From NCBI RefSeq assembly GCF_000403645.1, contig NC_021313.1:2127014-2191013 (forward strand): a stretch of 64,000 nucleotides of DNA, given 5' to 3'. The notes under the pieces are model-generated. The model made no database searches. It was not told where the DNA came from and saw only the letters and a program-made list of their open reading frames with translations. Source of the stretch: Salinarchaeum sp. Harcht-Bsk1. Its GTDB lineage: Archaea; Halobacteriota; Halobacteria; Halobacteriales; Salinarchaeaceae. The position numbers and the translations under genes are program-made. Each line of letters opens with the position of its first letter. Within the stretch, counting starts at the first letter, position 1. Below are positions 24,009 to 64,000 of this stretch, in pieces.

Positions 24009-24184
24009 GCCGCGACACCCCCGTTTCCTTCGATATTTCGCCCGATAACGCGGGGGCGGACTCGGGTTCCGCTTTCCTTCGATTTTCAGCACCGGTTTCT
24101 ACGCGGGAAACCGAATCGCAAAATCCGAAGCGAGGCGCTACGGCCCTGGCTCGCCGGATAATTCGCAACGAGTAAGGATCGGAG

Positions 24185-24256
24185 TGGACTCGCTGGGATT
24201 TGAACCCAGGGCCTCTTCCTTGCGAAGGAAGCGATCTGCCACTGATCTACGAGCCC
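24185..24256 (-). tRNA. tRNA-Ala (anticodon CGC)
   Basis: The minus strand folds into a complete 72-nt cloverleaf. The acceptor is GGGCTCG/CGAGTCC with discriminator A, and the D arm is GATC-AGTGGCA-GATC. The anticodon stem CTTCC/GGAAG encloses TTCGCAA (anticodon CGC, reading GCG). The T arm is CTGGG-TTCAAAT-CCCAG. No intron is seen and CCA is not encoded. It lies alone, next to the truncated haemoglobin gene. Confidence 0.96.
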
Positions 24257-24349
24257 GCAGACCATTCTACCGCCCGAATCGCACTTGAGGCTTCCGTTTG
24301 CCGATCAGGGACGTGACGCGGTCTCACTCGCCAGACAGCCAGGAACCGG

Positions 24350-24724
24350 TCACTCCTCGTCGGGACTCGCGAGCAGTTCGGCCTCGAACTGCGCGACGGC
24401 ACCGACCACGGCGTCGGCGTCCTCGCCCTCGACGTCGTACTCGTCGAGGCTCTCGTAGAGCAGTTCGACGGCGCGCTCGATGTGTGCGGGTTCGAACGGC
24501 ACCTCGAGGTGGGCGTCCCGAACCGACGGGCCGTCGTAGGTCTCGGGGCCGCCGGCGGCCTCACAGAGGAAGTCGGTCTGCGTCTCGCGAAGTCGCTCGA
24601 GGTCTGCGTCGTCGAAGAACGGGCCGAGGTCGGGATCCGCGACGAGTCGATCGTAGAAGTCGTCGACGACCGCCGCGATTGCGTCCTGCCCCCCGAGGCG
24701 ATCGTAGAGCGTCTCCTCAGTCAT
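24350..24724 (-). CDS. Group I truncated haemoglobin
   Basis: 124 residues with the truncated-globin layout: TLYDRLGGQDAIAAVVDDFYDR, then FFDDADLERLRETQTDFLCEAAGG and the proximal haem ligand in VRDAHLEV (His72). The Phe-Tyr pair in the B helix (DDFYDRL) is typical of trHb1. It binds oxygen or NO in the cytoplasm. No flavohaem partner is adjacent. Length and the single start at 24724 are standard. Confidence 0.93.
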   Translation of the reverse strand: MTEETLYDRLGGQDAIAAVVDDFYDRLVADPDLGPFFDDADLERLRETQTDFLCEAAGGPETYDGPSVRDAHLEVPFEPAHIERAVELLYESLDEYDVEGEDADAVVGAVAQFEAELLASPDEE

Positions 24725-33131: not shown

Positions 33132-34157
33132 ATGGGGTTCGGGACGAAACGGACGTTCGTGACAGATCTCGACGTCCACCTGCCCGTCGCCGATCTCCCG
33201 ATCGACGACGTGGCCGAACTCACGCGCCGGTCGGAACGACTCGGCTACGACTTCGTCTGGCAGCCCGAAACGTGGGGCTCCAACGGCGTCGCGGCGATGA
33301 CGGTGATGGCAGAACGTACCGACGAGATCGGCATCGGCTCCTCGATCCTGAACGTCTACTCCCGATCGCCGGCCCTGCTCGGCCAGAGCGCTGCAACCCT
33401 CCAGGAGCACAGCGGCGGCCGATTCCGGCTCGGCATCGGCCCGAGCGGCCCGATCCTCATCGAAGGCTGGCACGGCGTCGACTTCGAGCGACCGCTCCGG
33501 CGAACCCGCGAGGCCCTCGAGATCATCCGCGCCGTCACCGCCGGCGAGACGGTGAACTACGACGGCGACGTGTTCTCGCTCTCGGGCTTCCGCTTCCGCT
33601 CGGAGCCACCCGCGGACGCGCCGCCGGTCGACGTCGCGGCGATGGGCCCGAAGGGCGTCGAAATGGCCGGCCGCTTCGCCGACGGCTGGCACGGCATCGT
33701 CCTCGGCCCCGGCGGCATCCGCGACCGGCTGGAGGACCTCGAACGCGGCGCGGAGCTGGGCGACAGGAGCCCCGACGACGTCCGCACCCAGATCTCCGTG
33801 CCGACCTGCGTCCACGAGGACGGCGACCGCGCCCGCGATCTCGTTCGGGAACACATGGCGTTCTACGTCGGCGGCATGGGCACCTACTATCGCGACGCGC
33901 TCGCCAGGCAGGGCCACGAGGACACCGCGATGGAGATCGCCGCGGAGTGGGCCAACGGCAACAAGAAGGAGGCCGCCGCGCTCGTCTCCGACGACATCCT
34001 CGACGAGTTCGCCGCGGCCGGCACCCGCGAGGAAGCCCGCGCCGACCTGCAGCGCTTCACCGAGATCGACGGTGTCGACGCCGTCTCGATCGGCTTCCCC
34101 CACCGCGCCTCGCTCGACCGGGTGCGGGACACGCTCCACGCGCTCGCCCCCGAGTGA
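33132..34157 (+). CDS. F420-dependent LLM-class oxidoreductase
   Basis: 341 residues of the luciferase-like TIM barrel. RSERLGYDFVWQPETWG, TDEIGIGSSILNVYSRSPALLGQ, GRFRLGIGPSGPILIEGWHG, REALEIIRAVTAGE and GRFADGWHGIVLGPGG are the diagnostic blocks. This haloarchaeal subgroup (I believe TIGR04024) uses coenzyme F420; the substrate is unknown. The ATG at 33132 gives MGFGTKRTFVTDLDVHLPV. It is divergent from the K+ channel gene across 87 nt, so their promoters overlap. A dispersed structured element follows it. Confidence 0.9.
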   Translation: MGFGTKRTFVTDLDVHLPVADLPIDDVAELTRRSERLGYDFVWQPETWGSNGVAAMTVMAERTDEIGIGSSILNVYSRSPALLGQSAATLQEHSGGRFRLGIGPSGPILIEGWHGVDFERPLRRTREALEIIRAVTAGETVNYDGDVFSLSGFRFRSEPPADAPPVDVAAMGPKGVEMAGRFADGWHGIVLGPGGIRDRLEDLERGAELGDRSPDDVRTQISVPTCVHEDGDRARDLVREHMAFYVGGMGTYYRDALARQGHEDTAMEIAAEWANGNKKEAAALVSDDILDEFAAAGTREEARADLQRFTEIDGVDAVSIGFPHRASLDRVRDTLHALAPE

Positions 34158-34251
34158 TCGACGCCACCGCGGCGCCATCTGCCGGGGCGAAGGTCGCCTG
34201 CGCAATCCACCGGGGTGTCGTGAGCCTGGACCAGCCTCCATCGGGTGGGAC

Positions 34252-34371
34252 TGGAAGGGGCCGACCGCTCGATCCGTCCTCGACGACGTAAGCACCGTAG
34301 CCGAGCGAGCACCAGCGAGCGAGGCAAGGAGCGCAGCGAGTCGCGGACGGTCGAGCGGGAGGGGGCTTCCA
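34252..34371 (+). repeat. Dispersed structured element, copy A (120 bp)
   Basis: It runs from TGGAAG to CTTCCA. It can fold as stem TGGAAG/CTTCCA, a 7x7 internal loop GGGCCGA/GAGGGGG, stem CCGCTCGA/TCGAGCGG, one bulged T and stem CCGTCC/GGACGG. The apical region carries GACGTAAGCACCG and repeated GAGCGAG-like units. It lies between the F420 oxidoreductase stop and the 34464 gene. The 92 nt after it, up to that gene, include an AT-richer stretch that may hold the promoter. Confidence 0.85.
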
Positions 34372-34463
34372 AGTTGTTTGCTGCCGTTAGAGCACTTCCG
34401 TATACCCGAAATCAGTTCAATAGCGACGGAGCCTTTTTCCAGATCCAGCGCAACCCTCTGCCC

Positions 34464-44395: not shown

Positions 44396-44549
44396 GGGTG
44401 CCCGTTCGGTACCGGACCTGATGAGCGTTGTCCCACCGGAAGGGACAGAAGGGACGTTTCGCCGAATATATTCGCCAGAATGATCTCGCTTTCTGCCAGT
44501 TGCGACACCTCTCGCGCCGTGGCGAACGCCGCGTCTTCCGCCGGATACC

Positions 44550-44610
44550 GCGAGCCTTCCCAGTCCACCGGGGTTCGCGAGCCTTCCCAGTCCACCGGGG
44601 TTCGCGAGCC
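44550..44610 (+). repeat. 27-bp direct tandem repeat, about 2.3 units
   Basis: Two identical 27-bp units (44550-44576 and 44577-44603), each GCGAGCCTTCCCAGTCCACC followed by GGGGTTC, and a partial third (GCGAGCC) lie just left of element copy B. TCCACCGGGG within the unit resembles the flank GCCACCGGGTGGG of copy B, so the repeat may have arisen from that flank. Confidence 0.85.
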
Positions 44611-44635
44611 TCCACAGATCGCCACCGGGTGGGAC

Positions 44636-44755
44636 TGGAAGGGGCCGACTGCTCGATCCGGCCACGGCGACGTAAGCACCGCAGGTGAGTGAGCGGAAGC
44701 GAACGAACCGAGGAGCGCAGCGAGCCGCGGCCGGTCGAGCAGGAGGGGGCTTCCA
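44636..44755 (+). repeat. Dispersed structured element, copy B (120 bp)
   Basis: It has the same length and fold as copy A. The arms are TGGAAG/CTTCCA, then internal loop GGGCCGA/GAGGGGG, CTGCTCGA/TCGAGCAG, bulged T and CCGGCC/GGCCGG. Relative to copy A, two pairs changed on both sides (C-G to T-A, and T-A to G-C), preserving pairing. CACGGCGACGTAAGCACC marks the apical part. Confidence 0.85.
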
Positions 44756-44828
44756 AGGGGTTTGCTATCGCTATTTAGCAGCAACCGATGCGATATCCAC
44801 CAGGATTACACTTCGGAGAGAATCGAAT

Positions 44829-45170
44829 TCAGGCGTTCAGCGTCTCCTCGAGGTCGCCGTTCTCGTCGAGTTCGGCCAGCACGTCGCTGCCGCCGACGAA
44901 CTCGCCGCCGACGAACGTCTGCGGGATGGTCGTCCAGCCGCTGTGCTCCTCCAGCGCCTCGCGGTAGGCATCCAGCGCTTCGAGCGTGTCCACGGTCGCC
45001 ACGTCGTCGCGGTACTGGCCGATCAGGCCGAGCGCGCGCTTCGAGTAGCCACACTGGGGCATCAGTTCGTTGCCCTTCATGAAGAGGACGACCTCGTTCT
45101 GTTCGATGGCGGCGTCGACGCGTTCCTGGACTTCCTCCGGAGAGAGCGACGGTTCGGGCTCGAACGACAT
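44829..45170 (-). CDS. Monothiol glutaredoxin (Grx4/GrxD type)
   Basis: 113 residues. VVLFMKGNELMPQCGYSKRAL carries the monothiol active site CGYS (Cys40). WTTIPQTFVGGEFVGGSD is the glutathione or thiol-binding part. Such proteins carry [2Fe-2S] clusters with BolA partners. Its neighbour upstream encodes BolA, 106 nt away on the same strand, which fits a Grx-BolA cluster-trafficking pair. A TATA-like GCATATCC lies about 25 nt before the ATG at 45170. Confidence 0.93.
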   Translation of the reverse strand: MSFEPEPSLSPEEVQERVDAAIEQNEVVLFMKGNELMPQCGYSKRALGLIGQYRDDVATVDTLEALDAYREALEEHSGWTTIPQTFVGGEFVGGSDVLAELDENGDLEETLNA

Positions 45171-48764: not shown

Positions 48765-50654
48765 TTAGCCGTCGCCCCAGACGTCGCCCAGCGGCGAACC
48801 CTTCGCGCTCCGTGAGTCGTCGCCGTCGTCGTCGCTGGAGTCGGTCTGGCCAGTGTCGGCGGTGGCGGCATCCGCTGCACCGTCCGTACTGCTTCCAGCA
48901 GCGCTGCCAGAACCGGACTTCGTCGACGCGTTCGCGGTGGCGGTCCCGGCGTCGCGACCGTCGCTGGTGCCAGTCGCGTCGCCGCCGGCAGCGACCGCGG
49001 CCGCACTGCCACTCGCCTCGACGGGGAGCCCCGGAATGTCGGGTGCTCGCATCTCGTCGACCTGCTCGCGGAACCAGTCCGGCATGACGGATCCCGCTCG
49101 TTCGAACACGTCGAGGAGCGCGTCGTCGGCGACGTAGGTCGCGCCGTAGTCGTCGGGCGAGCGGACGACCCGGCCACAGCCCTGGATGACGGTGCGGAGC
49201 GTCGTGCGGTAGTACCACGCCCAGCGGTCCTGTTCGAGCCGGTGGGCGACGCGGGCGTCGCCGGCGTTCGGAAACGGCGCCTTGCAGAGCACCTGCCAGC
49301 GCGCGAGATCGCCCTCGAGGTCCAGGGCCTCCTCCATCTTGACCGAGAGGAGGACGCCGGGGCCATCGGATCGCTTCCAGGCCACGAGCGTGCCGTCGCG
49401 GTCCTCGCTGTCGTGGGTCCAGAGCCTGGCGTCCTTGCCGCGGTCCCTGAGCAACTCCGCGAGGCGGTCCTGGATCGCGTAGGAATGGCAGTGCACCAGC
49501 CCCTTCTCGTCGTCGTGTTCGTCCATCAGGCGAGCGATCGTCTCGGCCATCCGCGGGAGCGTCGCGTCGCGGTGCTCGGTGGTCATCCGGCCGCAGGTCA
49601 CGTCGTAGAGCCGGCGGTGCTCTAGCGGGAAGGTGTGGGGCAGGTCGACCATTGCGACGTTCGCGGGGTCGAGCCCGACTTGCCGGCAGAAGGCCTCCTT
49701 GTCGAGAATTGTTGCGGAGAGGAGCGCGAAGCGGTTCGCCCGGTCCCAGACGGTGTGGTGGAGGTACCGCTCCGGTTCGAGGGGCTTGATCGTGATCGCG
49801 CGGTTCTCGGCCTGGTCGATCAGCCACTCCGTCGCGCTGTCGGTGTCGCGGTAGTCCTCGCGGAACCACTGGAGGTCGCCGATGCGCTCCTGGAGGCGGT
49901 CGCGCTCGGCGACCTCGCTGGCGGAGAGTTCCGCCTGCCCGAGCAGGGCGTCCTTGCGGTGCTCGCACGCGGCGATGGCCGTCTCGGCGAAGTGGAACGC
50001 GGCCTCGACGGGGCCGGCGTCCTGCTCGTCCAGGTTCGGGACGGAGAGGTCGTCCCAGACCGGCACCGTATACGGCCCCAGGTCGATCGTCGCGTACATC
50101 TCCGCCCACTCCGCGAGCCCGTGGGCCTCGTCGATGACGCAGACGTCGCGCTTGCGGAACACCTCGGAGCCGGCGGTCTGCATGAAGTACGCGAGCGTCA
50201 TCGCCGCGATCTGGCGGTTGGCCGCGAGGTTCCGGCTCGCGAAGTACGGACAGCGATCCTTCACCGAGCAGTCGTAGCCCGCCTTTCGGGCGCAGGGCGC
50301 CTGGTCGACCGGGGTGTCGCGCTCCTCCGGGAGGATGCAGTCGTAGTTCGACTTCCCGCGGATGATCGCGAAGTCCTCCAGCAGGTCGTCGTCGCTCACG
50401 TCGTCGAGCTGGGAGACCTGCGGCGTCGTGTAGTAGGACCCGACCGCTTCGGAGGCGTGGTCGGTGTCGTCGTGGGTCTTGGCCGTTCCGCAGATCGCTC
50501 GCGCGAGGAGTGACTTGCCGCTCCCCGTCGGCGCGCGCACGAGCACCACGTCGTTGCCGTCGTCGAACGCCGCTGCGATCCGATCCAGGGCGTCTTCCTG
50601 GTGACCGCGGTAGGAGGGCGCGGGGAACTCGTCGTGAATCCGCTCTGTGTGCAC
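48765..50654 (-). CDS. XPD/DinG-family ATP-dependent DNA helicase
   Basis: 629 residues from a GTG at 50654. Walker A is RAPTGSGKSLLA (41-48), four Cys (106, 121, 129, 135) are spaced like the XPD iron-sulfur cluster ligands, and the DEAH box is CVIDEAHGLAEWA (175-178). The C-terminal helicase half has GLVHCHSY and VIQGCGRVVRSPDDYG. It should unwind DNA 5' to 3'. The last 90 residues form a Ser/Asp/Gly/Ala-rich tail without predicted fold, ending GSPLGDVWGDG, which could be a partner-binding peptide. The frame is open further upstream but runs into repeat elements. Confidence 0.92.
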   Translation of the reverse strand: MHTERIHDEFPAPSYRGHQEDALDRIAAAFDDGNDVVLVRAPTGSGKSLLARAICGTAKTHDDTDHASEAVGSYYTTPQVSQLDDVSDDDLLEDFAIIRGKSNYDCILPEERDTPVDQAPCARKAGYDCSVKDRCPYFASRNLAANRQIAAMTLAYFMQTAGSEVFRKRDVCVIDEAHGLAEWAEMYATIDLGPYTVPVWDDLSVPNLDEQDAGPVEAAFHFAETAIAACEHRKDALLGQAELSASEVAERDRLQERIGDLQWFREDYRDTDSATEWLIDQAENRAITIKPLEPERYLHHTVWDRANRFALLSATILDKEAFCRQVGLDPANVAMVDLPHTFPLEHRRLYDVTCGRMTTEHRDATLPRMAETIARLMDEHDDEKGLVHCHSYAIQDRLAELLRDRGKDARLWTHDSEDRDGTLVAWKRSDGPGVLLSVKMEEALDLEGDLARWQVLCKAPFPNAGDARVAHRLEQDRWAWYYRTTLRTVIQGCGRVVRSPDDYGATYVADDALLDVFERAGSVMPDWFREQVDEMRAPDIPGLPVEASGSAAAVAAGGDATGTSDGRDAGTATANASTKSGSGSAAGSSTDGAADAATADTGQTDSSDDDGDDSRSAKGSPLGDVWGDG

Positions 50655-50772: not shown

Positions 50773-50892
50773 TGGAAGCCCCCTGCCGCTCGACCAGCCG
50801 CGGCTCGCTGTGCTCCTCGCCTCGCTCGCTGACGCTCGCTCGGCTGCGGTACTTGCGTCGCCGGGGCTGGGTCGAGCGGTCGGCCCCTTCCA
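50773..50892 (-). repeat. Dispersed structured element, copy C (120 bp, inverted)
   Basis: On the minus strand it reads TGGAAG-GGGCCGA-CCGCTCGA-C-CCAGCC to GGCTGG-TCGAGCGG-CAGGGGG-CTTCCA, the same architecture as copies A and B. It has its own compensated stem (CCAGCC/GGCTGG) and a bulged C instead of T. The core motif is GACGCAAGTACCG, a slight variant. Its length of exactly 120 bp matches copies A and B. Confidence 0.85.
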
Positions 50893-51027
50893 ATCCCACC
50901 CGGAGCCGGTTTCCCGAGTGCGAAATGCGTGGGGATCCCCCTGCGTAGCCGGGGATCGACCGCCGACGCCAGCGACCCGACGATCCACCGGAAGCGAAAA
51001 CCTATCGGGACCCGAAACGGGCGGGAC

Positions 51028-51131
51028 TGGAAGGGGCCGACCGCTCGTCGTGTTCTAACGACGTAAGCACGGCCGAGTGAAACGAGGCCGCGCGCAGCGA
51101 GTGAGAACCGACGAGCGGGAGGGGGCTTCCA
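51028..51131 (+). repeat. Dispersed structured element, copy D (104 bp)
   Basis: TGGAAG-GGGCCGA-CCGCTCGTCG-T-GTTCT pairs with AGAAC-CGACGAGCGG-GAGGGGG-CTTCCA. Closing stem, internal loop, long stem and single-base bulge are all kept. Only the apical region is shorter by 16 nt. ACGACGTAAGCACGG is the conserved core. It faces away from copy C. Confidence 0.85.
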
Positions 51132-51175: not shown

Positions 51176-52279
51176 TCAATCGAATCCGCTGATCAAGGTC
51201 ACCAGCCACTGCGCGGGATCGCTCCGTTTTCGCACGTCGACCCGAACCACCCACTTCACCCACTGGAACCCGCGCCGACCGGGAGCGACCAGTCGAATCG
51301 GCGCGCCGTGGCCGTGGCTCAACCGCTCGCCGCCGACGTGGGTCGCGAGTAGCGCGTCCCGGGCTTCCTCGATCGGAAGCGACCAGCGATAGCCCGTCAC
51401 GGAGACGAAGCGGACGTACTCTGCCCCGCTCGCCGGACCGACCTCCTCTAGCAGGTCACCGACGCGAATCCCACGCCAGTCCTGCACGGTGTACCAGCCG
51501 CTGGTGCAGTCGAGCAGGGCTTCGATTTCGGCGTCGGAGTCCACGTCGCTGTATTCCAGCGTGAGCTCCGAGTCCACCGCCCCGCGCACGTCGAGGGTCC
51601 ACGAATCGCGGTCGATCGGATCCGGATCGTCCGCGACCCAGGAGGTCAGCGGGAAGGCGTCGTTACCCTCTCCCTTCCTGACTTGCGATCCCGTAAATCG
51701 CCGATCCTCACCCGGCGTGCCGAGCAGGCGATTCGCGAACTCCTGTCCGCGGTAGGCCACCGCCCCGCCGACGAACAGGGCCGAGTACTGCAGCGTGGTC
51801 CGGCGGCGATCGAGGTCCTGCGGACGCGGCAGCCGAAACCGCGAGGTGAGGTGAGCGATCAGCAGCGGCACCAGCAGGAGGCCGAAGGCGACGTGGATCG
51901 AGAGCAGCGTCCAGTACGAGATGCGGACGTCCGATCCGCCGACCCAAACGATCCCAGTCGCGAGCGCGCCGATCGCTGCGATCGCGGTGAGCACCGAGAG
52001 CGCCATCGAGCGCAGCCATCGATCCGGATCCGTCAGCCGATCCCGGACTCTCGCGAGTTTGAACGCGAGAAAGACGGCGAACGTCAGGCCAGCGATCCGA
52101 TGCGCCCAGAAGAGCCACCAGCCGGAATGGTCCGCGACGGTGAATGAGTAGAGCCCGGAGACCGTCTCGAAGACGACGATCGCGAACAGCGTCCAGTCGA
52201 CGAGGCGTGGCGGCGGCTGGACTGCCTCCCAGGCACGACGGAGTGGGCTGAGGAGGGGGTCCAGCCGCGTGCGATCCAT
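51176..52279 (-). CDS. Membrane molybdopterin oxidoreductase (b-type membrane domain fused to SUOX/MsrP-like domain)
   Basis: 367 residues from the ATG at 52279. Four helices (about 28-47, 53-77, 93-115, 122-144) carry His60, His129 and His143, positioned to bind haem as in cytochrome b561/MsrQ proteins. DLDRRRTTLQYSALFVGG (about 155-172) starts a fifth helix with a twin-arginine-like motif. The soluble molybdopterin domain follows, with the Mo-ligand Cys in LLDCTSGWYTVQDW (Cys258), VRFVSVTGYRWSL and GHGAPIRLVAPGRRGFQWVKW. By the positive-inside rule this domain lies outside the cell. It resembles a fused MsrQ-MsrP repair reductase, but the substrate is unproven. Confidence 0.88.
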   Translation of the reverse strand: MDRTRLDPLLSPLRRAWEAVQPPPRLVDWTLFAIVVFETVSGLYSFTVADHSGWWLFWAHRIAGLTFAVFLAFKLARVRDRLTDPDRWLRSMALSVLTAIAAIGALATGIVWVGGSDVRISYWTLLSIHVAFGLLLVPLLIAHLTSRFRLPRPQDLDRRRTTLQYSALFVGGAVAYRGQEFANRLLGTPGEDRRFTGSQVRKGEGNDAFPLTSWVADDPDPIDRDSWTLDVRGAVDSELTLEYSDVDSDAEIEALLDCTSGWYTVQDWRGIRVGDLLEEVGPASGAEYVRFVSVTGYRWSLPIEEARDALLATHVGGERLSHGHGAPIRLVAPGRRGFQWVKWVVRVDVRKRSDPAQWLVTLISGFD

Positions 52280-61198: not shown

Positions 61199-61540
61199 TT
61201 CCATGCGGAGTCGTCGGCGCTCACCGCGCGGTTTGGAATCCAATTCTGTCGGTTCGCGTCGGCTTCGATCACCCCAGCATCGGGGCCGTTTCGACCGTCA
61301 GACGACCGTGTGTCGACTGTCTGACGCCGAAATTTTCCCGACGCCGTCCGTGATTTTCACTTTCACCGCGCTCGGCCAACGGTTAATGTACCCACTCCCA
61401 TACGATCTGTTGCTGTCACACGCTGGCCACTCCCGTGGCACTCCCCACTTTCGTACGAACGCCGGTCGCGGCTTGGGGGCCGCAACCGGCTTTCGTCTCT
61501 CTCGGAGTTCCCTTCGAGAAGCCGACGCTCCACTCGACGG
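61199..61540. other. 342-nt gap with a short perfect hairpin
   Basis: No gene is supported between the sulfurtransferase and hel308 stops, which are convergent. CGTCAGAC (61296-61303) and GTCTGACG (61319-61326) form an 8-bp perfect inverted repeat about 100 nt after the sulfurtransferase stop, followed by AAATTTTCCC. It may act in transcription termination. Confidence 0.45.
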
Positions 61541-63568
61541 TTACCCGGTTCGCTCCGCGAGCCGCTCCCGGGTATCCCGGATCCGTTCCGTCGCGTCGCT
61601 GTCGACGTGCTCGGCCAGGGACTCCGTCGCGGCGAGCAGCCACTCCGCGCGCTCGGCGTACCGCCGGACGTCGCCCGGACCGACGTTGTAGCCGTCGACG
61701 AGCTGATCGAGCGGGACGCCGTCGGCGTAGTCCGCGAGCAGGCGGGCGGTCTTGAGCACCGATAGCCAGGCGTGGAAGTCGCCCTCGAAGTCCCCGATCG
61801 GGCGAGCGAGTTCGTCGGCGTGGCGCATCGCGACCTCGCTGAGGCGGCCGGCCTCGGCCTGCCCGACGTACCGGGTCGGCATCTCCGCAGTGTCACAGAC
61901 GATCTCGCAGACGGTGAGCGGGGTGATCCGCTCCAGGTCGTCTGCTCGTTCGAGAGCCTCGACGACGGTCGCGCCCGTGGCCGGATCGACGTAGACGCGA
62001 GAGACGAGCGCGCCGAGTTCGGTGGCCTCCAGCCGTTCCTCGTCCGCGTCCCCAGCCCCGTCGTCCACGAGCATCCCGGCGTCGATCAGCCGGTCGATGG
62101 CGTCGGCGGCCGTGGCCTGGAGCGATGGGCCGCCACCGCAGTGGGCGCAGAACGTCTCGGCGAGCAGGTCGGCAAGCTGCGCCCGGGAGTCCGCCACGCC
62201 GCCGGCGACGGAGGCGAGCACGTGCGGCCGGAGCGATTCGGGATCGTCGAGCTTCGAGGTGACCGGCGCGGGTTCGGCTTCGAGGTAGCGCTCGCGGAGT
62301 TCGTCTCGCTCGGACGCGTCCTCCGCGACGAGGATCGCCTCGCCGTATGGGTCGAGGCCGGGCCGCCCCGCGCGTCCGAACATCTGGCGTACTTCCAGCG
62401 GCGAGAGCGGCTCGTATCCCGACTCGCCGTACCGTTCGTGATCGCGGACGATCACCCGCCGTGCGGGTACGTTCACGCCTGCGGCGAGCGTCGGCGTGGC
62501 ACAGAGTACCCGGAGGTCGCCGTCGCGGAAGCCCGCCTCGACCAGGCTCCGGTGCTCTGCGGTGAGGCCAGCGTGGTGGAAGGCGATCCCCGATTCCGCG
62601 ACGTCGGCGAGCGCCTCGCCGGTGACCGTCGTCGCGCTGTCCCGGAGTACGGCGGCGGTCGTCGTTTCGTCGCTGGCCTGCTCCTCGGGTTCTCGGTCTG
62701 CATCGATTGCCGTCCCGCCGTCTGCGACGCTTCCATCGGCGCCGGGATCCGTTGCGCCGTTGCCGATTTCCAGTGCTCCGGCGAGCGTCGAGGCGAGCTG
62801 CCTGGCCTCCCGACGGGAGCTGACGAAGACGAGACACTGTCCGCCGGCATTCAGGGCGTCCTGCACGATCGCGCCCGTCGCCGAGAGGTCGCCGGGCTCG
62901 ATCGGGCGCTCTTGGGTCTCGACGCCGTCGCCGAGAACGAGGGTTTCGTCGGCGTAGATGCCGGTCCGGAGTTCGACGGGCCGCCACTCGCTGCGGACGA
63001 CGGCGGCGTCGAGCCAGTCGGCGATCTCGTCGGCGTTCGGGACGGTCGCGGAGAGTGCAACGAGCTGGACGGCGGGGTTGAGCCGGCGCAGCTTCGCGAT
63101 CGTCACTTCGAGCGTCGGACCTCTGCCTTCCTGGTCGAGGACGTGCACCTCGTCGAGGACCGCGCAGGCGATCCGATCGACCCACGCCGCCTCGTGGCGG
63201 ATCGCCGCGTCGACCTTCTCGGCGGTCGCGACGACCACGTCGTGGCCCGCGAGTTCCTCGTCCGTCGCGTCGAAGTCGCCCGTCGCGACGCCGACGCTGA
63301 GTCCCGGAATCGCGTCGAAGGTCTCGGCCTTCTCCGTCGCGAGGGCACGGAGTGGGACCACGTAGACGGCGGGGCCGTCGGCCGTGAGTGCTGCGAGCTG
63401 GGCGATCATCGTCTTCCCGCTCGCCGTCGGGACGGCGGCGACGACGGACTCGCCGTCGCAGATTCCCGCTTCGACGGCCGCCGCCTGCGGCGGGTAGAGC
63501 TCCTCGATCCCCTGCCCTTCGAAGTGAGCAACGTGGTCCGCGGCGAGGGGCAGGTCGGCGACGTGCAT
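61541..63568 (-). CDS. hel308: Ski2-type DNA helicase Hel308
   Basis: 675 residues from the ATG at 63568 (MHVADLPLA, matching archaeal Hel308 starts). Helicase motifs are AAVPTASGKTMIAQ (I), CAVLDEVHVLD (II), LVALSATVPN (III), CLVFVSSRREA (IV), GIAFHHAGLTAEHR, TLAAGVNVPARRVI and RQMFGRAGRPG (VI). A winged helix and ratchet domain follow. It acts at stalled replication forks. A low-complexity acidic insert (about 275-320, GNGATDPGADGSVADGG) enlarges the second RecA domain. A shorter Cys cluster AHCGGG lies in the ratchet region. Confidence 0.95.
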   Translation of the reverse strand: MHVADLPLAADHVAHFEGQGIEELYPPQAAAVEAGICDGESVVAAVPTASGKTMIAQLAALTADGPAVYVVPLRALATEKAETFDAIPGLSVGVATGDFDATDEELAGHDVVVATAEKVDAAIRHEAAWVDRIACAVLDEVHVLDQEGRGPTLEVTIAKLRRLNPAVQLVALSATVPNADEIADWLDAAVVRSEWRPVELRTGIYADETLVLGDGVETQERPIEPGDLSATGAIVQDALNAGGQCLVFVSSRREARQLASTLAGALEIGNGATDPGADGSVADGGTAIDADREPEEQASDETTTAAVLRDSATTVTGEALADVAESGIAFHHAGLTAEHRSLVEAGFRDGDLRVLCATPTLAAGVNVPARRVIVRDHERYGESGYEPLSPLEVRQMFGRAGRPGLDPYGEAILVAEDASERDELRERYLEAEPAPVTSKLDDPESLRPHVLASVAGGVADSRAQLADLLAETFCAHCGGGPSLQATAADAIDRLIDAGMLVDDGAGDADEERLEATELGALVSRVYVDPATGATVVEALERADDLERITPLTVCEIVCDTAEMPTRYVGQAEAGRLSEVAMRHADELARPIGDFEGDFHAWLSVLKTARLLADYADGVPLDQLVDGYNVGPGDVRRYAERAEWLLAATESLAEHVDSDATERIRDTRERLAERTG

Positions 63569-63663
63569 TGGGAGTACGTCAGGCCGCCATCCTACGTAAA
63601 CGTTCGTCGGAACGGGCACTGCAAGGGCGGAGGTGAACGACGGAAAGCGACAGCATCGTTCTC

Positions 63664-63767
63664 GAAAGCCCTCGGCGGGCTCGCGCACGCTCAGCCGGAT
63701 ATCCTCAGTCGCTTCGCTCCTTCGGATAGGGCCGGCTGAGACGCACGCGACTCCGCCTCGCCCTTTC
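63664..63767 (-). repeat. Dispersed element, subfamily 2, copy F (104 bp)
   Basis: On the minus strand CCTGGCGGACTGAAAGGGCG begins the element and CCGAGGGCTTTCGAG ends it, as in copy E. GAAAG/CTTTC, an internal loop, then GGCGG-TCGCG paired with CGCGA-CCGCC and an inner CTCAGCCGG/CCGGCTGAG stem give a long hairpin. The GACGTAAGCAC core is absent. It sits midway between the divergent starts of hel308 and hemB. Confidence 0.75.
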
Positions 63768-63867
63768 AGTCCGCCAGGTGCGGTGGTTTGACGATCCCAC
63801 TGTCTCGGTTGTCGTCGCGGTAGCTGCGACCGGTGGAGTTTTTCGCTCCCACGCCCCAGTTTCGGCC

Positions 63868-64000
63868 ATGCACCCGACAGAGCGGCCCCGTCGGCTCCGT
63901 CGCGACGGCCTCCGCGAGCTGGTCGCCGAGACGGCCCTCGACGCGTCGGACATGGTCGCGCCGGTGTTCGTCGACGCGACCGCCGATGAGCGGGTCCCCA
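63868..64000 (+). CDS. hemB: Porphobilinogen synthase (5' end only)
   Basis: The first 44 codons are in the window: MHPTERPRRLRRDGLRELVA, then LDASDMVAPVFVDATADERV. This matches the N-terminus of HemB (delta-aminolevulinic acid dehydratase), including the RPRRLR and DMVAPVFV blocks. The enzyme condenses two 5-aminolevulinates. Together with hemA and the siroheme-route genes near 14-17 kb it completes the early tetrapyrrole pathway. GTTTTTCG about 25-30 nt upstream may be the TATA box. Confidence 0.92.
   Translation, partial: MHPTERPRRLRRDGLRELVAETALDASDMVAPVFVDATADERVP

Follow-up and report, generated by a model that had tools for sequence, protein, structure and literature searches.

What is the structured block that lies between the XPD/DinG helicase and the molybdoenzyme of Salinarchaeum sp. 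Harcht-Bsk1: a composite unit, a mobile one, or two repeats that came close by chance? The window (the whole stretch of DNA that was analysed, 64,000 nucleotides) contains the block in an intergenic gap of 521 nt, between the helicase start at 50654 and the molybdoenzyme stop at 51176. Both genes are on the minus strand, and Pfam matches support their assignment (Helicase_C_2/DEAD_2 in the helicase, Oxidored_molyb in the molybdoenzyme). The two structured copies in inverted orientation that an earlier note had placed in this gap were confirmed; its copies C and D are here called hairpins C and D. The parts of the block and the other copies in the window are listed below, with scores from the covariance model R1.

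34253 to 34370, plus strand: copy A, a single family member where synteny with S. laminariae breaks
44637 to 44754, plus strand: copy B, a single family member where synteny with S. laminariae breaks
50774 to 50891, minus strand: hairpin C, R1 match of 122 bits
50892 to 50902, minus strand: linker of C, adjoining the hairpin on its 5' side; minus-strand sequence CGGGTGGGATT
50931 to 50958, no strand: small hairpin at the centre, GATCCCC..GGGGATC, of the short-spacer class
50982 to 50991, plus strand: GATCCACCGG motif, which many A-type copies conserve 5' of their linker
51018 to 51028, plus strand: linker of D, directly 5' of hairpin D, CGGGCGGGACT
51029 to 51130, plus strand: hairpin D, R1 match of 105 bits
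55424 to 55545, plus strand: diverged single copy with a GAAAGGGCGAGG end, R1 match of 62 bits

Hairpin C is built from an outer stem GGAAG..CTTCC, a GGG/GGG loop, a variable middle stem, a conserved core (GACGCAAG..CAGCGAG) and a variable apical stem. Hairpin D has the same ends and core, differs in the middle and apical stems and is 16 nt shorter. The shorter length had been noted before, together with the claim that the loss is confined to the apical part; the latter does not hold, since the middle stem is replaced on both arms (GACCCAGCCCCGGC in C and GTCGTGTTCTAAC in D). C and D are complementary over 93% of the inner 30 nt and 95% of the outer 20 nt. The spacer measures 137 nt between the GGAAG/CTTCC ends and, when the flanking T/A are counted, the 135 nt given in the earlier note. 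A conserved GGGTGGGACT precedes A-type copies at the linker position. The stem letters of the central small hairpin vary among the aligned spacers and, as judged by eye, complementarity is kept in several of them. In line with the earlier note, both hairpins are fold-competent: each folds alone as single-stranded DNA (z -4.5 for D and -2.7 for C), and covariation across the family is strong. Moreover, C, spacer and D fold jointly into a single structure, whichever strand is taken (z -9.9 and -9.1): one strand gives a long hairpin, the other a four-way clover.

A blastn search with hairpin C gave 41 matches in the Salinarchaeum genome (3,255,260 bases). The model R1 was built from an alignment, A1, of 35 copies, which omits two aberrant A-type copies (1797316 and 1955006) and 11 B-type copies (GAAAG..CTTTC) out of 48. 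With R1 we counted at least 100 copies in this genome and at least 114 in S. laminariae; these numbers are lower bounds because no more than 150 candidates per genome were scored. Matches were present in 210 of 293 sampled genomes of the order, with up to 11 candidates scored in each. Only 1 of the 214 copies in the two Salinarchaeum genomes overlaps an ORF called by simple ORF scoring, with no annotation used.

The hairpins, 102-118 nt long in C and D, follow one architecture: the ends (GGAAGGGGCCGACCGCTCG..CGAGCGGGAGGGGGCTTCC) are fixed, the core with its purine internal loops is conserved, and the middle and apical stems vary. In the family alignment 95.8% of the cells are paired, compared with 34-44% when the partners are slid. 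Cells changed on both sides numbered 144 against 45 in shuffles, with none of 500 shuffles as high, and 18 of the 30 base pairs carry such both-sided changes. Since this family-wide covariation exceeds that of the shuffles, the fold is beyond chance. The conserved purine loops persist over several genera, and in other genera the outer stem is also variable with its pairing kept (by eye). G-U type pairs outnumber A-C mismatches both in the middle stem (93 vs 34 in the 125 copies parsed out of 214) and in the apical part (99 vs 58). Therefore, the folded strand is probably the one that begins with GGAAGGGGCC. Part of the G-U excess may come from shared ancestry.

The pairs of the family follow an orientation rule. 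Defining a close pair as copies less than 600 nt apart, we found that 25 of 25 here and 27 of 27 in S. laminariae point outward (-,+), while uniform placement would give 1.8 and 2.4 close pairs, respectively, in any orientation. Three other genera (G028, G075 and G183) added 15 of 15, so that the outward orientation holds in 67/67 close pairs pooled from five genomes. A further genome, G041, was also searched and had no two matches within 600 nt; its weaker matches (E above about 1e-5) were left out of the pair count. Because all 67 pairs share one orientation, the pair is a composite unit, whose organisation resembles that of bacterial REPINs. The suggestion that C and D bound a composite was thus borne out, both by the recurrence of the outward pair and by the folding of the whole block on either strand. 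The observation made at this locus is right and more general than could be seen from the window.

Two main kinds of pair occur in this genome. The spacer is short in A-A pairs, to which C/D belongs; in A-B pairs it is longer and conserved in part, and these pairs have conserved internal blocks in common. B-type copies occur only in pairs (11/11 among the 48 copies examined). Most spacers in G028 and G075 have only the two linkers left, with a small centre between them that resembles a palindrome, and the pairs of the other genera mostly have 14-22 nt between the model matches. About half of all copies are single. Singles do not score significantly lower than paired copies (median 95.4 vs 104.5 bits, p 0.38) and make up 13 of the top 20. 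An origin of the pairs by inverted duplication was rejected, since the arms within a pair are 69.5% identical, about the same as random copies (68.5%).

The closest relative, S. laminariae, holds a pair in the same XPD-molybdoenzyme gap. Its middle stems are entirely different, while the 3' half of the spacer is recognisable and its orientation unchanged; on this ground we rejected the possibility that the C-D block lies inverted in one species relative to the other. The comparison of this junction covers S. laminariae, and the molybdoenzyme was near XPD in 1 of 80 loci. Across the genome, 75 loci were compared, and at 24 of them both flanks are shared with a locus in S. laminariae that also carries the element. 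These 24 positions comprise 6 pair/pair, 12 single/single and 6 pair/single cases, and orientation is kept in 11 of the 12 single/single ones. Between orthologous hairpins the median identity is 74%, little above the 68% of random copies (20 comparable copies of 27 tried), and the fold is nevertheless retained. The 60 nt upstream of orthologous copies are 63% identical, compared with 48% for random copies.

We aligned four of the six pair/single differences (1875532, 2111108, 953793 and 2280625). At 1875532 one hairpin of the ancestral pair is cleanly absent here, and the join could be explained by a deletion from one GGGGCT repeat to another. The loss here at 2111108 has left just the base of one hairpin, and at 953793 the partner had in fact been missed, with S. 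laminariae carrying an insertion. The earlier note proposed to check whether relatives gain or lose the block jointly. As single hairpins were lost at two of the six pair/single positions, joint gain or loss is not the rule; joint orientation is. Overall, the family seems to be inherited in place and not to jump. Its copy number and wide spread speak against plain immobility.

Some copies lie at rearrangement breakpoints. Four synteny junctions with S. laminariae were found in window positions 14300-64000. Copy A lies in the junction 34157-34447 and copy B in 44503-44829, and the segment between them is inverted and located elsewhere in S. laminariae. Assuming 45 intergenic gaps, the probability that at least two of the four junctions fall in the four element gaps is about 0.03. 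Of the other two junctions, 24298-24357 adjoins a tRNA-Ala gene (24184-24256) and 61450-61551 has no recognised copy of the repeat.

A stricter flank count over the same 75 loci gave five whose two flanks match the flanks of two different element loci in S. laminariae; for the other 70, the flanks match the same locus in 21, one flank is matched in 12 and none in 37. The site 2037342 is among the 24 shared on both flanks in the first count and among the five two-locus cases in the stricter one. These breakpoint data suggest that copies recombine with one another. Best-match identity is slightly higher within than between genomes (0.843 vs 0.836, p 0.001), and with so small a difference, arm exchange within the genome is at most hinted at. 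Same-site inheritance in two species, the loss of single hairpins and the presence of copies at breakpoints are direct observations on the composite.

We favour, with a probability of about 0.5, the reading that C-spacer-D belongs, as one copy, to an ancient haloarchaeal family of REPIN-like composite palindrome pairs with a putative mobiliser and a putative function. The composite would consist of two palindromes, each a hairpin of about 105-120 nt and always facing outward, which short linkers (CCCACCC..GGGTGGG) join across a small centre. Within a hairpin, the strand that folds would be the purine-rich one with its CGAG-type loops. The inverted pair would then place a single foldable hairpin on each DNA strand, towards the 3' side, an arrangement that would suit a process acting on single-stranded DNA. 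The block may alternate between two forms, one long hairpin and one like a clover. Its past spread probably went through a single-stranded intermediate, with a protein acting in trans that would be absent or unrecognised in Salinarchaeum today. Present copies would stay put, exchange arms by mutual recombination and occasionally act as inversion crossover points. Under this proposal lie the pairing rule, the covarying structure, the strictly intergenic placement and the wide spread in the order, all of which were observed directly.

REPINs are described as inverted REP doublets with a spacer that take a long hairpin or a clover form (PMC3116915). As far as the consulted part of that paper goes, REPINs and BIMEs resemble our family in high copy number, intergenic palindromes, inverted doublets and the coexistence of singles with doublets (PMC3116915); here all 67 close pairs are inverted and a single copy of 214 overlaps an ORF. 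The hairpins at our locus exceed the 20-40 bp reported for REPs in the consulted part of PMC3733652 and, unlike REPs, combine variable covarying stems with fixed internal loops. Both Salinarchaeum genomes are without the RAYT (PF01797) of REPIN systems. Moreover, the REPIN model, in the part of the literature consulted, expects decayed singlets, whereas singles here are not more decayed. Because the RAYT and singlet-decay features both fail, we take the organisation of the family to be REPIN-like but do not count the family among the REPINs. The lack of Y1_Tnp, the undecayed singles, pair arms that are no more alike and hairpins several times the REP length count against the REPIN-like reading.

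Since the fold is strand-specific, a role as RNA is the strongest rival, one that we consider doubtful. The hairpin would be made in the 3' UTR of the upstream gene or as a small RNA, and its internal loops would bind a protein. The very strong covariation, the strand-specific G-U excess and the purine loops kept over several genera all agree with this, as does the placement of singles, which more often follow a co-directed gene (68/107). On the other hand, any transcript through a pair carries one hairpin in the wrong strand, and in most pairs of the other genera the 14-22 nt between the model matches are too few for two divergent promoters with their own start sites. Convergent-gene gaps are not enriched in pairs (++5, +-11, -+12 and --22, 50 resolved of 52), and on the same ground a terminator reading was rejected. 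The median distance from the outer side of a pair is 55 nt to stops (n=50) and 115 nt to starts (n=51). Rfam 15 at gathering score gave no family match to the repeat and one tRNA in the whole window, and a permissive search of the gap returned two chance-level matches (E 0.32 and 6.7).

A DNA element that organises the chromosome is unlikely; in this reading a cruciform would extrude from the inverted pair, or a protein with a structural role or a role in recombination would bind to the pair. Such an element would account for copies that are exclusively intergenic, kept at the same sites between species and unevenly spread along the chromosome, with 1, 4, 10, 9, 20, 21, 19, 12, 2 and 2 copies per tenth here and 13, 14, 25, 17, 10, 13, 5, 1, 9 and 7 in S. 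laminariae. The near absence from plasmids (3 of 72,556 records with a match) and the lack of any match in the phage sequences searched also fit. A double-stranded cruciform, however, should not favour G-U over A-C, and about half of the copies have no partner. We know of no protein that binds the repeat, which also counts against this explanation.

An ordinary non-autonomous transposon (a MITE or an IS605-derived PATE) bounded by C and D and moved as a block is quite improbable. High copy number and the internal blocks common to A-B pairs speak for it, and haloarchaeal PATEs and SMRs have been described (PMC3119063, in the part consulted). We looked over 51 pairs for a target-site duplication, as the earlier note had advised, and found none: direct strings shared by the outer flanks average 4.96 nt, against 5.07 nt in mismatched pairs. 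The same 51 pairs showed no excess of an outer inverted repeat beyond the hairpins. Y1 transposase (Y1_Tnp, PF01797; RAYT/IS200) was found in neither Salinarchaeum genome, while the control search was positive in 5 of 14 control genomes, including Haloferax volcanii. There was no recurring transposase-like gene among the 12 largest families of 370 neighbouring proteins. Finally, the relative's site is occupied, and no empty site with a clean whole-block junction was found. The C-D pair is therefore not a fresh mobile insertion: the site is filled in S. laminariae, there is no duplication and there is no Y1 transposase. The composite mobile unit of the earlier note stands as a fixed two-hairpin unit and is unsupported as a mobile block with target duplication.

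Known haloarchaeal elements share some traits with the family. The SMR-A elements of Haloquadratum are similarly about 110 bp long, with inverted terminal repeats and tens of copies and, in the consulted part of the paper, no target duplication (PMC3119063). According to the same part, SMR-A copies of one type are commonly more than 95% identical, and their targets are PATEs and IS605-type elements (PMC3119063). In contrast, the copies here are far more diverged (median 68% for random cross-species copies) and outward-paired, and their neighbours in the inspected families are ordinary genes. This separation from SMR-A (HqIRS42, 43 and 55) is by description, not by sequence. PATEs, as that part of PMC3119063 presents them, likewise have palindromes near both ends, no target duplication and no internal transposase gene; they lack inverted terminal repeats and are related to IS605 ends, whereas here the ends are inverted and Y1 transposase is absent. 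Two independent insertions, close by chance, would agree with the different middle and apical stems of C and D, and are refuted by the orientation rule (67/67), by pairs far above uniform placement, by linkers that face each other and by the same arrangement in S. laminariae, which makes them the least credible explanation.

Literature searches on haloarchaeal repeats, archaeal REPINs, Salinarchaeum and structured repeats found no description of the family in the texts consulted, and a search by family sequence fragments found no paper, so that the family is apparently undescribed. Tentatively, and with less confidence than in the REPIN-like composite, it might represent an undescribed class of archaeal genome element: order-wide structured palindromes maintained as a structural or RNA device and not as a parasite. 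Such a class would reach about a hundred copies in each of the two counted genomes with no need of a HUH transposase, would keep its fold while its stems are rewritten and would hold its loci over species divergence. Its absolute outward rule would always leave one foldable hairpin per DNA strand, and its copies could be the chromosome's preferred crossover points. The orientation rule together with the covariation is among the clearer haloarchaeal cases of selected structure without known function. The comparison of the two Salinarchaeum genomes supplies sites for testing function, turnover and a part in inversions, and the absence of Y1 transposase raises the question of how the population is maintained.

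Some minor forms were also seen. Small near-perfect hairpins (e.g. GGAAGATCGGAGATCTTCC) occur within or beside the larger ones, as if palindromes were nested in palindromes (L041 3480-3774, L310, L312 and the spacer of the S. laminariae pair at 256515). Two adjacent weak R1 matches on the minus strand of the window (63661-63905; 30 and 18 bits) are possibly decayed copies. A relative of the subtype with the GAAAGGGCGAGG end, itself ending in CAAAGGGCGAGG, lies at 1468637 and is orthologous to a copy at 948775 in S. laminariae (G002).
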